The notes beneath the pieces are model-generated. The model searched no databases. It saw only the letters and a program-made list of their open reading frames with translations, and was not told the DNA's origin. Of a DNA stretch of 64,000 nucleotides, positions 43,633-49,589 are shown in pieces; positions within the stretch are counted from its first letter, which is position 1, and every line of letters starts with the position of its first letter. The position numbers and the translations under genes are program-made. Where the stretch lies: positions 5,580,001 through 5,644,000 of the forward strand of contig NZ_CP107947.1 in NCBI RefSeq assembly GCF_036059255.1, written 5' to 3'. Source of the stretch: Micromonospora sp. NBC_00389 (GTDB taxonomy: Bacteria > Actinomycetota > Actinomycetes > Mycobacteriales > Micromonosporaceae).

Positions 43633-43672
43633 GCGAGGGCGATCGGGTATCCGGCACGTACGCTGGGTGACC

Positions 43673-44878
43673 GTGAGACGCACGATGTTCGGTCGCCCGC
43701 TGCGCGGCATCGCCTTCGACGTGGCCGTCGCCGGCGCGGTGGCGCTCCTCGGCCTGGCCGGGGCCGTGAACCAGCCGGGCGGCTGGGCGGCCACCCTGGT
43801 CGGCGTGGGGATGGCGGTGGCCCTGCTGTTCCGCCGCTCGTACCCGAGCGCGGTGACCGTGGTGATCGCGGCACTCGCCCTGGTCCAGGTAATCGCACAG
43901 TGGGGTCCGCTCGCCTACGACGTCGCCGTCCTGATCGCGCTCTACAGCGTGGTGAAGTACGGCCAGCGGCTGCGCGACGGGGTGCTCGCCGGCGCGGTCG
44001 CCGCCGTTGGCGTGCTGCTCGCCGCCGCGCAGACCCCCGGCGTCATCAAGTGGTGGGTGACCGCGCTGTGGTACGCGCTGGTCACCGGCGCGGTCTGGCT
44101 GGTCGCGCTGAACGTGCGAACCCGCCGCCTCTACGTGCTCAGCCTGGAGGAACGGGCCAGCACCCTCGAACGCGAACGGGAGGCCGAGTCGCGGGCGGCG
44201 GTCGCCGAGGAACGCACCCGGATCGCCCGCGAGCTGCACGACGTGGTGGCGCACAGCATGGCCGTGATGATCGTCCAGGCGGACGGGGCGCGCTTCATGC
44301 TCGACCGCGACCCCGAGCAGGCCCGGACGGCGGTGAAGGTGGTCGCGGACACCGGCCGGCAGGCCCTGGAGGAGATGCGCCGGCTGGTCGGCGTCCTGCG
44401 GGACGCTGGTCCCTCCGGCGCGGCCGGTTCGGTGGTGGCCGCCGACCCGGAGCACCGCCGGCTGGCCCTGACCGAGCTGCCCGACCTGCTGGCCCGGTTC
44501 CGTGACGCCGGGCTGCGCATCCGGCACACCGTCGACGGCGAGCCGCCGGCGCTGCCGCCGGGGCTGGAGCTGACCGTCTACCGGGTCGTGCAGGAGGCGC
44601 TGACCAACGCGCTCAAGCACGCCGGCGTCGGTGCCGGCGTCGAGGTGACCCTGACGTACGCCGCCGACGCCGTCGTGGTCCGGGTGGTCGACGACGGTCG
44701 CGGCCGGCCCGTGGTCAGCCCGGCGCCGTCCGGCGGTCACGGCCTGCTCGGCATGCGGGAGCGAGTGACGGTGTACGACGGCAGCCTCACCGCCGGCCCC
44801 CGGCTGGCCGGGGGCTGGCAGCTCGAGGCCCGGCTACCGCTACCGTCGGACAGCGCAACGGAGGTGATCGCGGCATGA
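43673..44878 (+). CDS. NarL-type sensor histidine kinase
   Basis: 401 aa from GTG 43673, eight bases after a TACGCT -10 (43659-43664); an in-frame GTG at 43667 would sit too near that box. Four membrane helices (~10-140) are followed by a short coiled coil. HisKA_3 'RIARELHDVVAHSMAVMIVQ' carries the phospho-acceptor His, and the HATPase_c part has 'VVQEALTNALKHAGVG', 'VVDDGRGRP' and 'GHGLLGMRERVTVYDGSL'. Stop overlaps the regulator start (ATGA). In this widespread type the kinase/regulator pair controls a neighbouring FtsX-type ABC exporter. Confidence 0.93.
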   Translation: MRRTMFGRPLRGIAFDVAVAGAVALLGLAGAVNQPGGWAATLVGVGMAVALLFRRSYPSAVTVVIAALALVQVIAQWGPLAYDVAVLIALYSVVKYGQRLRDGVLAGAVAAVGVLLAAAQTPGVIKWWVTALWYALVTGAVWLVALNVRTRRLYVLSLEERASTLEREREAESRAAVAEERTRIARELHDVVAHSMAVMIVQADGARFMLDRDPEQARTAVKVVADTGRQALEEMRRLVGVLRDAGPSGAAGSVVAADPEHRRLALTELPDLLARFRDAGLRIRHTVDGEPPALPPGLELTVYRVVQEALTNALKHAGVGAGVEVTLTYAADAVVVRVVDDGRGRPVVSPAPSGGHGLLGMRERVTVYDGSLTAGPRLAGGWQLEARLPLPSDSATEVIAA

Positions 44879-45540
44879 CGGTCCGGGTGGTGATCGTGGA
44901 CGACCAGGCGTTGGTACGCGCCGGGTTCCGGATGGTGCTGGACTCCCAGCCCGACCTGGAGGTGGTCGGGGAGGCCATCGACGGGGCGGACGCGCTGCGC
45001 GTGCTCGCCCGCACCGAGGCCGACGTGGTGGTGATGGACATCCGGATGCCGACCATGGACGGGGTCGAGGCGACCCGGCGGCTCTGCGCCGACCGCCCGG
45101 CCGGTCCACCCCGAGTGTTGGTGCTGACCACCTTCGACACCGAGGCGGACGCGTTCGCCGCGCTGCAGGCCGGGGCGAGCGGCTTCCTGCTCAAGAACGT
45201 CCCACCGGAGGAGCTGCTGGCCGCGATCCGGGTGGTGGCCGAGGGCGACTCGGTGGTCGCGCCGTCGATCACGCGGCGGCTGCTGGACCGGTTCGCCGGC
45301 CAGCTCGGCGCCGGCCCGACCGCCGACCCCCGGCTGGCGCAGCTCACCGAGCGGGAACGCGAGGTGCTGCTGCTGGTCGCGCAGGGGCTGTCCAACGCGG
45401 AGATCGCGGCGCGGGTGCACGTGGCCGAGGCGACGGTGAAGACCCACGTCGGGCGGATCCTGGCGAAGCTCCACCTGCGCGACCGGGTTCAGGCGGTGGT
45501 GCTGGCGTACGAGAGCGGGCTGGTCACGCCCGGCGGGTGA
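44875..45540 (+). CDS. NarL/LuxR response regulator
   Basis: 221 aa, ATG overlapping the kinase stop by four bases. Receiver domain with 'VVIVDDQALVRAGFRMVLDS' (acidic pair), 'DVVVMDIRMPTMDGVEATRR' (phospho-Asp), 'VLTTFDTEADAFAALQAGAS' and 'FLLKNVPPEELL' (Lys). LuxR HTH: 'LTEREREVLLLVAQGLSNAE', 'VHVAEATVKTHVGRILAKL'. The likely target is the ABC-type unit that starts ~150 bases downstream; a GTACGAC dyad lies between. Confidence 0.94.
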   Translation: MTVRVVIVDDQALVRAGFRMVLDSQPDLEVVGEAIDGADALRVLARTEADVVVMDIRMPTMDGVEATRRLCADRPAGPPRVLVLTTFDTEADAFAALQAGASGFLLKNVPPEELLAAIRVVAEGDSVVAPSITRRLLDRFAGQLGAGPTADPRLAQLTEREREVLLLVAQGLSNAEIAARVHVAEATVKTHVGRILAKLHLRDRVQAVVLAYESGLVTPGG

Positions 45541-45546
45541 CCCCGC

Positions 45547-45564
45547 GTACGACCTGAGTCGTAC
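45547..45564. promoter_or_regulatory. Dyad GTACGAC-ctga-GTCGTAC between regulator and FtsX unit
   Basis: Perfect 7-bp inverted repeat with a 4-base centre, seven bases past the response regulator stop and ~80 bases upstream of a TAACGT -10 (45643-45648). It may be the terminator of the kinase operon or the operator used by the regulator on the exporter unit. Confidence 0.45.
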
Positions 45565-45686
45565 CGGCCGGCGGGCACACCGCGGCCCGGGACGCACACA
45601 GGTCGAGCGCGCAGGTGGAGATCGACCGACCCTCGCCGGCCATAACGTCGGAGGGGTCCGATCCGCACCTCCACCGGGGAGCCCAC

Positions 45687-45770
45687 GTGTCCCTCGCACC
45701 TTCCACCCACGCCGGCACCGGCGTCGCGGTCACCACCCGTGACCTGGAATGCGGGGCGGTGACGGGATGA
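45687..45770 (+). pseudogene. 27-codon remnant of the ABC exporter ATPase
   Basis: A GTG with GGGGAG six bases upstream opens a 27-residue frame beginning 'MSLAPSTHAGTGVAVTTRDL' and ending 'CGAVTG'. The beginning is exactly what starts the ATPase of actinobacterial FtsX-type exporters (leader, then 'V.TRDL.K.YG'), but the Walker A, signature and Walker B regions are all missing. The TGA overlaps the ATG of the permease (ATGA), preserving the coupled start. The simplest reading is an in-frame internal deletion of ~650-700 bases that joined codon ~20 to the last ~7 codons. It could be translated as a leader peptide for the permease. Confidence 0.7.
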
Positions 45771-48247
45771 TCCGCCTGACTCTGCGCTCGCTGCGCGCCG
45801 AGGCGCTGCGCATGCTGCTCTCCGCGCTGGCCGTCGTGCTCGGTGTCGCGTTCATCGCCGGCACTCTGATCTTCGTCGACGGGATGCGCGCCGGCGCGTA
45901 CGACCGGGCCGGCACCTTCGACCGACACACCGACCTCGGCGTCTATCCGACCGGTACGAAACCGCTGCCCACCGGCCTCGTCGACCGGGTCCGGGCTCTC
46001 GACGGGGTGGCCGCCGCGGCCGGTGAACTGACCAACACCGGCGGCATCGTCGGCGCCGACGGTCGGCCGGTGCTCGGCTTCACCGTGCTCGTCGCCATTC
46101 CCACCGAGGACGCCCTGCGCTCGTACGACGTGGTCGCCGGCCGACTGCCCGACCGCGCCGGCGAGGTGGTGCTCGACGCGCCGACGGTGGCCGAGGAGGG
46201 CTTCGCCCTGGGCGCCCCGGTCCAGATCGGCGGCACCGGCGGCGCCGCCCGCCCGTACACCCTGGTCGGGACCGTCGACGTGGCTGGCACCACACGTGAC
46301 GTCGGCGGTCCGTTCATCGGCCTGGTCGGGCCGGACGCGCTCGCGGTCACCGGCGAGCGCGGATACGGCCGGATCATGATGGCGGCCCGGCCGGGCACCT
46401 CCGCCACCGCACTGGCCGACCGGGTACGCGCCACCGTCGGCGCCGACACCAGCGTGCGGAGCCGCCAGCAGATCCTCGACGACGCCGTCGACGAGGCGGT
46501 TCGTGACCTGGACCAGTTCACCATGGTGCTGATGATCTTCGCGGCGGTCGCTGTGGTGGTGGCCGGCTTCGTGATCGCCAACACCTTCGCGATCGTGCTG
46601 GCTCAGCGCACCCGGCGGACCGCGCTGCTGCGACTGGTCGGCGCGACCCGGGGGCAGGTCTTCCGGGCCACCCTGCTGGAGTCGGCGGTGATCGGGATGG
46701 TCGCCTCCGGGGTCGGGGTGCTGCTCGGGGTGGCGCTCGCCAGCGGAATTCGGCTGCTGACGTCCCGACTGGACGTGCCGGTCTCCGGCGGGCTGACCGT
46801 CACCGGATCGACCGTACTGACCGGCCTGCTGCTGGGCACCCTGCTCACCGTGGGCGCCGCCCTGCTACCGGCCTGGCGGGGGACTCGGGTCGCGCCGGTG
46901 GCCGCGCTCACCGACGCCGCGGTGCAGCCCAGCCGGGGCGCGGGTCGGCTCCGGCTGACCCTCGGTGCGGTGGTGCTGGCCGCCGGTGTCGCCGCGCTGG
47001 CTGGCGCCGCGAGCGCCGGTCAGGTGCTGCTGGTGGCTGTCGGAGGGGTGCTGGCCTTCTTCGGCATCGTGCTGTTCGGGCCGGTTCTCGTTCCCGCGCT
47101 GGTCCGGGCGTTCGGCTGGCCGGTCCGCCGTCTGGTCGGGGTGACCGCCGGGCTGGCCGTGGCCAACGCGGTCCGCAATCCCCGTCGGGTCGCCGCGACC
47201 GCCACCGCGCTGGTGATCGGGATCGGGCTGGTGTCGGCGTTCGTGGTCGGCGCACGCAGCACCAAGGACGGCATCGAACGCAGTGTGGACGCCGAGATCG
47301 GGACCGACTTCGTGGTCAGCGGAATCGGCTCGAACCTCCCCGCCGCGCTCGCTGGTGAGCTGGCGGCCCGTCCCGAGCTGGGTGTGGTGCACGAGCAGCG
47401 CAGCACGGTCGCCGCCGACATCGAGATCCGCGCCGCCCATCCGGCGTTGGTCGGCCGGACGCTGAGCGGCGTGCTGGCCGGCGAGGTCGGCCGGCTCGGG
47501 CCGGGTCAGGTGCTGGTGCACCGGGAGCTCGCGCAGGCGCGGGGTTGGCAGGTCGGCTCCCCGGTCACCGTCCGGGGGCGCCCGTTCCGGGTGGTCGCGG
47601 TGGTCGCCGACGACACGCCCGCCATGGCCGCCAGTGGTGCACCCGCCGGGCACGTCATCGAGATGGCCGACGCCGATTTCGCCGCGCTCTTTCCCGACCA
47701 GCGGGCCTTCCTGGCCGAGGCGGACCCAGCGGCCGGAGTGAGCGCCGAGCGGGCCCGGGACGCGATCGAGGCGGTGCTGGCCCGCTACCCGACGGTGAAC
47801 CTGATGGACCAGGGCGCGTACAAGAAGATGCTCACCGACACCGTGGACATGTTGCTGGCCTTCGTCACCGCGCTGCTCGGCCTCGCCGTGGTGATCGCCC
47901 TGTTCGGCGTGGCGAACACGCTGAGCCTGTCGGTGGTGGAGCGCACCCGGGAGAACGCGGTGCTGCGGGCGGTCGGGCTGACCCGGGGCCGGATGCGGGC
48001 CATGCTCGCCGTGGAGGTGGTGCTGGTGGCGCTGGTCGGCGCGGTGCTCGGAGTCGGGCTGGGCACCGGGGTCAGCGCCGCCGCCATGGCCCTGCTGGCC
48101 CGCCTGGGCGGGGACTTCCACGTGGTGCTGCCGCTCGGCCAACTCGGGCTGATTCTCGGCGGCGCGGTTCTGGCCGCCCTGCTCGTGTCGGTGCTGCCGG
48201 CCCGCCGGGCGCTGTCCCGGCCGGTCGTCGAGGCGCTCGGCGACTAG
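45767..48247 (+). CDS. FtsX/MacB-type ABC exporter permease without ATPase partner
   Basis: 826 aa. Start ATG 45767 overlaps the stop of the ATPase remnant. Layout: helix 1 ('MLLSALAVVLGVAFIAGTLI'), a MacB-like periplasmic domain (~40-235), FtsX core one (~250-375: 'FTMVLMIFAAVAVVVAGFVI', 'TRRTALLRLVGATRGQVFRA'), two central helices, a second periplasmic domain (~480-680), and FtsX core two (~690-815: 'ENAVLRAVGLTRGRMRAMLA'). This duplicated permease normally works with a MacB/LolD-like ATPase to export or extract lipid, peptide or antibiotic substrates. With the ATPase deleted it must use one encoded elsewhere or be non-functional. Confidence 0.92.
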   Translation: MIRLTLRSLRAEALRMLLSALAVVLGVAFIAGTLIFVDGMRAGAYDRAGTFDRHTDLGVYPTGTKPLPTGLVDRVRALDGVAAAAGELTNTGGIVGADGRPVLGFTVLVAIPTEDALRSYDVVAGRLPDRAGEVVLDAPTVAEEGFALGAPVQIGGTGGAARPYTLVGTVDVAGTTRDVGGPFIGLVGPDALAVTGERGYGRIMMAARPGTSATALADRVRATVGADTSVRSRQQILDDAVDEAVRDLDQFTMVLMIFAAVAVVVAGFVIANTFAIVLAQRTRRTALLRLVGATRGQVFRATLLESAVIGMVASGVGVLLGVALASGIRLLTSRLDVPVSGGLTVTGSTVLTGLLLGTLLTVGAALLPAWRGTRVAPVAALTDAAVQPSRGAGRLRLTLGAVVLAAGVAALAGAASAGQVLLVAVGGVLAFFGIVLFGPVLVPALVRAFGWPVRRLVGVTAGLAVANAVRNPRRVAATATALVIGIGLVSAFVVGARSTKDGIERSVDAEIGTDFVVSGIGSNLPAALAGELAARPELGVVHEQRSTVAADIEIRAAHPALVGRTLSGVLAGEVGRLGPGQVLVHRELAQARGWQVGSPVTVRGRPFRVVAVVADDTPAMAASGAPAGHVIEMADADFAALFPDQRAFLAEADPAAGVSAERARDAIEAVLARYPTVNLMDQGAYKKMLTDTVDMLLAFVTALLGLAVVIALFGVANTLSLSVVERTRENAVLRAVGLTRGRMRAMLAVEVVLVALVGAVLGVGLGTGVSAAAMALLARLGGDFHVVLPLGQLGLILGGAVLAALLVSVLPARRALSRPVVEALGD

Positions 48248-48330: not shown

Positions 48331-49589
48331 CTACAGAAGCTCGACCATCGGGCCGGAGCACCGGTTGCGGGTGTCGAAGACGTAGCGGGCGTGCCGGACC
48401 ACCAGGTCGTAGTCGAAGCTGTCGTGGTCGGTGACCACCACCACCGCGTCGGCGGCCCGCACCTCCCGCTCGGTCAGCCCGACCACGGTCACCCCGGCGG
48501 GGATCTGGTGCGCCTCGGCGTACGGCTCGACCGCGTGGACCTGGGCACCGAGGGCAACCGGCGGGCCACGTCGACCGCGGGGGAGTCCCGCATGTCGCCG
48601 GTGTTCTTCTTGTACGCCAGCCCGAGCAGCAGCAGCCGGGCACCACTGACCGACCGGCCGGCCTTGTTCAGCCCTGCCATGATCCGCTGCGCGACGTGCT
48701 CGGGCATCTCGTGGTTGACGTCGTTGGCCAGCTCGATGAACCGGAACTGCCGGCCCAGGCGGCGCTTCACCTGCCAGGACAGGTAGCACGGGTCGATCGG
48801 CAGGCAGTGCCCGCCGACGCCGGGGCCGGGGCGGAACGGCAGAAAGCCGAACGGCTTGGTCTCGGCGGCATCGATCGCCTGCCAGACGTCGATGTCCAGG
48901 TGGTGCGAGAGCATGGTCAGCTCGTTGATCAGCGCGATGTTGACCTGGCGGAAGGTGTTCTCGATCAGCTTGGTCAGCTCGGCGACCTGGGTCGAGTCGA
49001 CCGGCACGGTGCGCTCCACGAGGCGCCGGTAGAACCCGTCCACCCGGGCCAGCGACGCCTGATCCACGCCCGAGACCACCTTCGGGGTGTTCTCCAGCCG
49101 CCAGGTCGGGTTGCCGGGGTCGATCCGCTCCGGGCTGTAGCCGAGGTGGAAGTCGCCGGGGCTCTGCAGCCCGCTGGCCGATTCCAGCAGCGGACGCAGC
49201 AGCTCCTGCGTGGTGCCCGGGTAGGTGGTCGACTCCAGGATCACCGTGCTGCCCGGCCGCACGTACGGGCCGATGCCGACGCCGGCCTGCTCGACGAAGC
49301 TCAGGTCGGGGGTTCCGTCGCGCAGTGGGGTGGGCACGGTGATGACGCAGAATTCGAAGCCCTCGGCATCGGTGTACGCGGTGCTGGGGTGGTACCGCCC
49401 ACTGCCCAGCGCCCGGCCCAGCCGGTCGGTCGGGATGTCCTCGACGAACGATTCGCCGGACGCGAGACGCTTCACCCGGTCGGCGTCGACGTCGAGGCCG
49501 ACGACGTCCAGCCCCGCCTCCACGGCACGCATGGCCAGCGGCAGTCCGACGTACCCCTGGCCGATCACGACCAGCTTCTCAGCACTCAC
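48331..49589 (-). pseudogene. UDP-glucose/GDP-mannose dehydrogenase family gene with a frameshift
   Basis: The 5' frame (49589 to ~48560) encodes the NAD-binding and central domains: 'LVVIGQGYVGLPLAMRAVEA', 'VITVPTPLRDGTPDL', 'ILESTTYPGTTQELL', 'ELTKLIENTFRQVNIALINE' and the catalytic Cys in 'GPGVGGHCLPIDP'. After 'MRDSPAVDVARRL' the frame changes. The UDP-binding C-terminal part ('ALGAQVHAVEPYAEAH', 'VVVVTDHDSFDYDLV') is in another frame ending at 48331. Two bases appear lost (or one gained) near 48553-48562. An intact gene would be ~420 aa, the normal length, oxidising a UDP-sugar such as UDP-ManNAc to its uronate. It may be a sequencing error or a real inactivation. Confidence 0.85.

Follow-up and report, generated by a model that had tools for sequence, protein, structure and literature searches.

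A MacB/FtsE-type ATPase gene reduced to a 27-codon scar before a full-length FtsX/MacB-type permease gene in Micromonospora sp. NBC_00389

Organization of the locus and origin of the short frame

We analyzed a 64,000-nt stretch of the Micromonospora sp. NBC_00389 genome (the window), in which the genes of interest lie on the plus strand. By domain matches, the first encodes a sensor histidine kinase (HisKA_3, HATPase_c and DUF7134; 43667-44878) and the second a NarL/LuxR-type response regulator (44875-45540). A perfect inverted repeat with 7-bp arms, GTACGAC-CTGA-GTCGTAC, lies 3' of the regulator gene (45547-45564) and is followed by TAACGT (45643-45648), read from aligned sequences, which we liken to a -10 element and which presumably has a promoter role. 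A frame of 27 codons (45687-45770) then precedes an intact frame for a full-length, 826-aa FtsX/MacB-type permease (45767-48247), as the earlier note on this DNA had described downstream of a kinase/regulator pair. The permease contains two FtsX (PF02687) and two MacB_PCD (PF12704) stretches, and its sequence matches in the PDB were MacB, LolC, LolE, YtrF and the permease of 5xu1. The gene adjoining the permease gene (48331-49589, minus strand), which we take from its similarity to encode a UDP-sugar dehydrogenase, is split over two frames near 48550 and is one longer open frame in relatives; this is either a frameshift or a small assembly error.

The short frame runs from GTG at 45687 to TGA at 45770 (translation VSLAPSTHAGTGVAVTTRDLECGAVTG*). 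It is preceded by GGGGAG (45676-45681, plus strand), the putative ribosome site of a former ATPase gene, and overlaps the permease gene by ATGA, the permease ATG being at 45767. All of these elements had been listed in the earlier note, which proposed that the entire nucleotide-binding domain of an exporter ATPase was gone. We aligned the region with the same locus of the six nearest ATPase-bearing species (L082-L087; 88-90% permease identity), all of which hold an intact MacB/FtsE-type ATPase gene in the gap between regulator and permease. Positions 45687-45749 matched the first 21 codons of the intact gene in all six, at 59 of 63 nt in L087 and 55 to 58 of 63 in the five others, and positions 45750-45766 aligned with the last bases before the permease gene. 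The frame therefore begins with 63 nt of the ATPase gene and continues directly with the last 17 nt before the permease, with the deletion junction at 45749/45750 and the 3' end of the former gene, including the ATGA overlap, at 45750-45770. Relative to L087, ~764 bp was missing, corresponding to the whole nucleotide-binding domain, and the regulator-to-permease gap measured 229 nt here, 994 nt in L087 and 1006 nt in L083. We found no ATPase match at the locus, nor any of the Walker A, signature and Walker B motifs.

Since both ends match the intact ATPase gene of relatives, the short frame is no chance frame; on this alignment it is the remainder of a MacB/FtsE-type ATPase gene after internal deletion, hereafter the scar. 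The N-terminal leader that the earlier note had called typical of exporter ATPases was indeed present but is in fact the lost gene's own 5' end, and the 3' end does come from that gene, although only ~17 nt of it. These 17 nt show a single-base gap relative to the relatives, and whether the scar frame ends at ATGA or runs into the permease depends on this one assembled base. We also looked among the relatives for the same short frame in a clade with no ATPase anywhere, and found none.

Occurrence of the ATPase gene across Micromonospora and beyond

We searched 160 Micromonospora genomes with the permease (E<=1e-100) and obtained a match in 118, of which 111 were full-length orthologues. The remaining matches were cut by contig ends (G016, G023), broken (G163, G165, G060 and G174, the last of which also meets a contig end) or distant (G015, 39% identity); a separate search added two further broken permeases, G014 and G007. 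An ATPase gene adjoined the permease at 68 of the 111 full-length loci and was missing at 43. All three strict ABC motifs were present at 65 of the 68 (L132, L171 and L190 missed a strict match to at least one), while none of the three occurred at any of the 43 ATPase-less loci. When the same 160 genomes were searched for the ATPase, orthologues with 76-100% identity were found in 70, namely the 68 plus G016 and G023. Each of these 70 has the permease, so that the ATPase without the permease was seen in none of the 160 genomes, and no orthologous ATPase was found anywhere in the 43 ATPase-less genomes. None of the six genomes with a broken permease had an intact ATPase adjoining. Among named species, the ATPase was missing at the locus in M. 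lupini (strain Lupac 08), M. orduensis and Micromonospora sp. MH99; M. deserti retained a remnant, and M. acroterricola the gene.

A kinase match of more than 370 aa lay upstream in all but one of the 43 ATPase-less loci and all but three of the 68 ATPase-bearing ones, the exceptions including contig-cut and displaced copies. The regulator was found at 43 of 43 and 66 of 68, respectively. A search with the kinase matched 122 genomes, seven of which had no permease match. In six of the seven (L253-L258) the kinase and regulator genes were present but the stretch read contained no ATPase or permease gene, and the seventh, G131, had only pieces. Because these six keep the pair without the transporter, the pair probably has other targets. 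The motif TACG[AC]C-N4-G[GT]CGTA stood 3' of the regulator gene at 61 of 67 ATPase-bearing loci (one without a regulator match was left out) and at 39 of 43 ATPase-less loci. We regard the inverted repeat as a likely candidate site for the regulator, and its retention where the ATPase is missing suggests that the permease is probably still under that regulator. In most relatives shown, the -10-like element has the form TAGCGT and stands before the ATPase or permease start.

Outside the genus we read 20 of 35 matches, with 37-64% permease identity, a distance at which orthology is only presumed; 14 had an ATPase match and six had none. Three of the latter (L217, L221, L231) have the regulator upstream with no ATPase between it and the permease, and the other three (L226, L232, L233) have no kinase pair. 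In L231, L217 and L221 a TAGCGT-type element lies just ahead of the point where the permease match begins, an arrangement that would suit a leaderless messenger. L217 also seems to carry an insertion of other coding sequence 3' of the regulator gene.

Number and kinds of ATPase losses

Losses were counted by parsimony, with loss treated as irreversible, on a FastTree tree of regulator, kinase and permease from the full-length loci. This gave 10 losses, or eight when weakly supported branches were merged. The largest group of ATPase-less loci, L088-L116, was split 22+7 in the tree; however, AU tests rejected neither these 29 loci as one clade (p 0.154) nor the 29 together with the window's genome (p 0.217). 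As older common losses are thereby permitted, we give the number as a range (10, 9 or 8).

The junctions differed. Besides the 27-codon scar of the window, we found internal deletions leaving 83 and 90 codons (L125 and L187), a degraded remnant of 119 codons (L138), a 19-codon scar (L182), five scars of 34-90 codons within one clade (L139, L159, L161, L163, L167) and an ATPase start fused in frame to the permease (L189, L191, L192). The 29 loci and L169 carry no scar, the permease start standing directly after the old ribosome site; G163 has this type of junction with its permease frame split. In L159, the 90-codon remnant seems to have been lengthened by repetition of a short Pro/Val-rich unit with the frame kept. 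The deletion proposed for the window's genome is thus supported by the comparison, yet it is one of many such losses in the genus.

Probable translational coupling of the remnants

The ATPase stop falls no more than 7 nt from the start of the permease in 67 of the 68 ATPase-bearing loci, and the remaining one was read as a fused frame. We classified eight losses that left remnants (the window's own, L125, L138, L182, L187, L198, the five-species clade and the three-species clade), leaving out the broken loci G163, G165, G060, G174 and G007; remnant start codons were chosen by pattern, and the ribosome site or the position decided between two candidates in L159, L167, L182 and L191. All eight either end no further than 5 nt from the permease start or are fused to it in frame. 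Six end in the frame most often seen among the intact genes (p 0.02 relative to a chance of one in three), a test to be read with stops being rare in such GC-rich DNA and with L198 standing before a broken permease; of the other two, one ends 4 nt before the permease start and one is fused in frame.

Within the scar, all four codon differences from L087 were nonsynonymous, and against the six intact genes there were 4-5 nonsynonymous and 0-2 synonymous differences. Over the same stretch, 15 pairs of intact genes differed by 0-2 nonsynonymous and 0-5 synonymous codons. The peptide sequence of the scar probably no longer matters, although this argument from peptide drift is weak. From the anatomy of the junctions, its ribosome site and frame probably do matter, as a leftover that keeps the permease translated. 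The earlier note had offered deletion and a translational leader as alternatives; both appear to apply, the ATPase gene having been deleted in the window's lineage and the leftover probably serving permease translation.

Constraint on the permease without its ATPase

We compared constraint by Nei-Gojobori counts, made without correction for composition or transition bias. Pairwise dN/dS of the permease was 0.273 in the 29 ATPase-less species (406 pairs), as against 0.256, 0.303 and 0.297 in three ATPase-bearing groups of our choosing (31 of the 68 loci). Values were higher in two small ATPase-less clades (0.349 and 0.406). On the terminal branch of the window's genome dN/dS was 0.24, compared with 0.18-0.26 for two ATPase-bearing sisters; the other ATPase-less terminal branches gave 0.30 (L182), 0.31 (L187), 0.31 (L138), 0.24 (L125) and 0.51 (L169). 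The permease measured 823-828 aa at all 43 ATPase-less loci. These values support a permease that is functional and under selection without its own ATPase.

Conservation of the putative ATPase-contact segments

Passages of PMC7468199 describe the loop NTIRITIISRSREIQIMRLVGA, which lies between TM2 and TM3 of S. pneumoniae FtsX, as a binding site for FtsE in which mutations harm growth. Two segments of the permease resemble this loop: residues 272-293 (NTFAIVLAQRTRRTALLRLVGA; 46580-46645, plus strand) and 717-738 (NTLSLSVVERTRENAVLRAVGL; 47915-47980, plus strand). We equated them with the loop by eye, from sequence, so that contact function and topology are putative; a structure prediction from 15 sequences reached a mean pLDDT of 47 and was not used.

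The two segments make up 5.3% of the sites. Of the inferred substitutions, they took 42 of 4868 on ATPase-bearing branches and 15 of 1591 on ATPase-less branches (p 0.76), while on the ten loss branches they took 15 of 663 (p 0.003 relative to ATPase-bearing branches). The changes on loss branches fell chiefly on L169, L187 and the stem of L189/191/192, and none on the branch of the window's genome. A wider set of residues chosen by eye and tested earlier (279-305 and 724-750) gave 120 of 4868, 49 of 1591 (p 0.20) and 30 of 663 (p 0.005), respectively. Residue T294 was changed in eight of 43 ATPase-less and one of 68 ATPase-bearing permeases. The extra change on loss branches can mean either refitting or relaxation. 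The contact surface appears to have been kept after the ATPase was lost, which favors a continuing ATPase partner.

Candidate ATPases elsewhere in the genome

A match to the lost ATPase at E<=1e-80 was present in 160 of 160 genomes. In the ATPase-less genomes the best match had 64-68% identity among the matches listed, its orthology across genomes being only presumed. The window's genome encodes 18 related ATPases at E<=1e-40, the best of which (67% identity) lies at G000:C1:5869412. Over the Q-loop segment this paralogue is identical to the lost ATPase at 28 of 35 residues, compared with at most 24 of 35 at the other 17 loci (two of which, L247 and L249, returned the same frame), and we consider it the best candidate for an ATPase acting in trans. 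It adjoins a permease of its own, whose coupling segments are rather different. By position, 12 of the 18 ATPases adjoin an FtsX-type permease, and among 13 FtsX-type permeases the one studied here is the sole one without an ATPase match adjoining.

Two further ideas were set aside. Relocation of the ATPase within the genome was rejected, since the best match stands at 67% and beside another permease. A switch to the paralogue through converging coupling segments was unsupported, as the segments of the orphaned permease showed no general shift toward those of the paralogue's permease. A plasmid search returned two short matches.

Discussion

An ABC permease is usually expected together with its own ATPase. 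We propose that an operon of kinase, regulator, ATPase and permease had, by comparison with relatives, its ATPase gene cut by an internal deletion, and that the ribosome site and frame of the scar would still bring ribosomes to the permease start. The permease would have lost only its dedicated ATPase and would be powered in trans by another MacB-type ATPase, for which the 67% paralogue is the best candidate. Borrowing of another ATPase, which the earlier note had raised, is plausible, and we rank it first because the contact segments are kept. On balance we hold it probable, with some reserve, that the scar is the remnant of the operon ATPase and that the permease is functional and most likely driven by such a partner.

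Alternatively, the permease might have become independent of ATP and work without any ATPase, either sensing for or assisting the neighboring kinase or serving as a static anchor. The near-universal retention of kinase and regulator at ATPase-less loci fits this, as do the rise of contact-segment changes on loss branches and, in S. aureus, the reported sensing by GraS through the permease VraG independently of efflux activity (passages of PMC9223312). However, the contact segments are as conserved after loss as in ATPase-bearing lineages, and the kinase seems not to need the permease, because six genomes keep the kinase pair with no transporter found adjoining. We therefore consider such an ATP-free role possible but rather unlikely. 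A broader proposition is that a whole bacterial group, its motor having been removed repeatedly, uses a MacB/FtsX-type permease without any ATPase, as a sensor or a part of the envelope that works independently of ATP; this we regard as unlikely.

A different reading is that the operon decays stepwise, losing first the ATPase, then the permease and then the kinase pair, and that the permease here is merely not yet broken. Genomes that could stand for later steps do occur, six with a broken permease and no intact ATPase and six others with the kinase pair alone, and the window's genome may have lost its ATPase only recently. Yet the 29 permeases of the large ATPase-less group keep both their length and an unchanged dN/dS, and on the window's own branch the ratio is within the range of the two sisters; decay is accordingly a poor prospect in our judgment. 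An assembly error is barely credible: the frameshifted neighboring gene indicates that small errors are possible in this assembly, but no long repeat was seen at the two deletion ends, 42 other assemblies lack the ATPase at this place too, with junctions of several kinds, and the one-contig genome holds no copy better than 67% identity elsewhere.

Close relatives that differ by this one gene make it testable whether type VII permeases share or dispense with an ATPase. Within a single genus, ATPase and permease have become separated about 8-10 times, always in the same direction where this is visible, with the permease kept under selection. For annotation, the lack of an ATPase gene should not be taken as a sign that the transporter is dead. 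Among the matches listed in a search of literature titles and abstract starts, with most subscription journals outside its scope, we found no description of a type VII permease with a lost ATPase.

The permease resembles the type VII transporters (the MacB superfamily: MacB, LolCDE, FtsEX and YbbAP) in its FtsX and MacB_PCD domains, and its coupling loops resemble the pneumococcal FtsX loop by sequence (PMC7468199, in part). Like YbbP as presented in passages of PMC5985334, it has a single chain that contains two permease units as well as two MacB_PCD stretches. In those systems, so far as the passages describe them, the ATPase is fused or a separately encoded partner, whereas here and in 42 other species it is missing from the operon. 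An operon without an ATPase but with a conserved permease recalls the importers that share an ATPase. A shared ATPase has been shown for sugar importers with MsmK (passages of PMC4519317), and one encoded elsewhere has been proposed for UspABC of M. tuberculosis (passages of PMC8603345); those are sugar importers, however, whereas an FtsX-type permease is involved here and the loss is repeated within one genus. As in BceAB and VraFG, an FtsX-family permease adjoins a kinase-regulator pair. Unlike these, which have one large extracellular domain, the Micromonospora permease has two MacB_PCD stretches, its regulator is of the NarL/LuxR type, its ATPase is missing and the kinase can persist without the permease.
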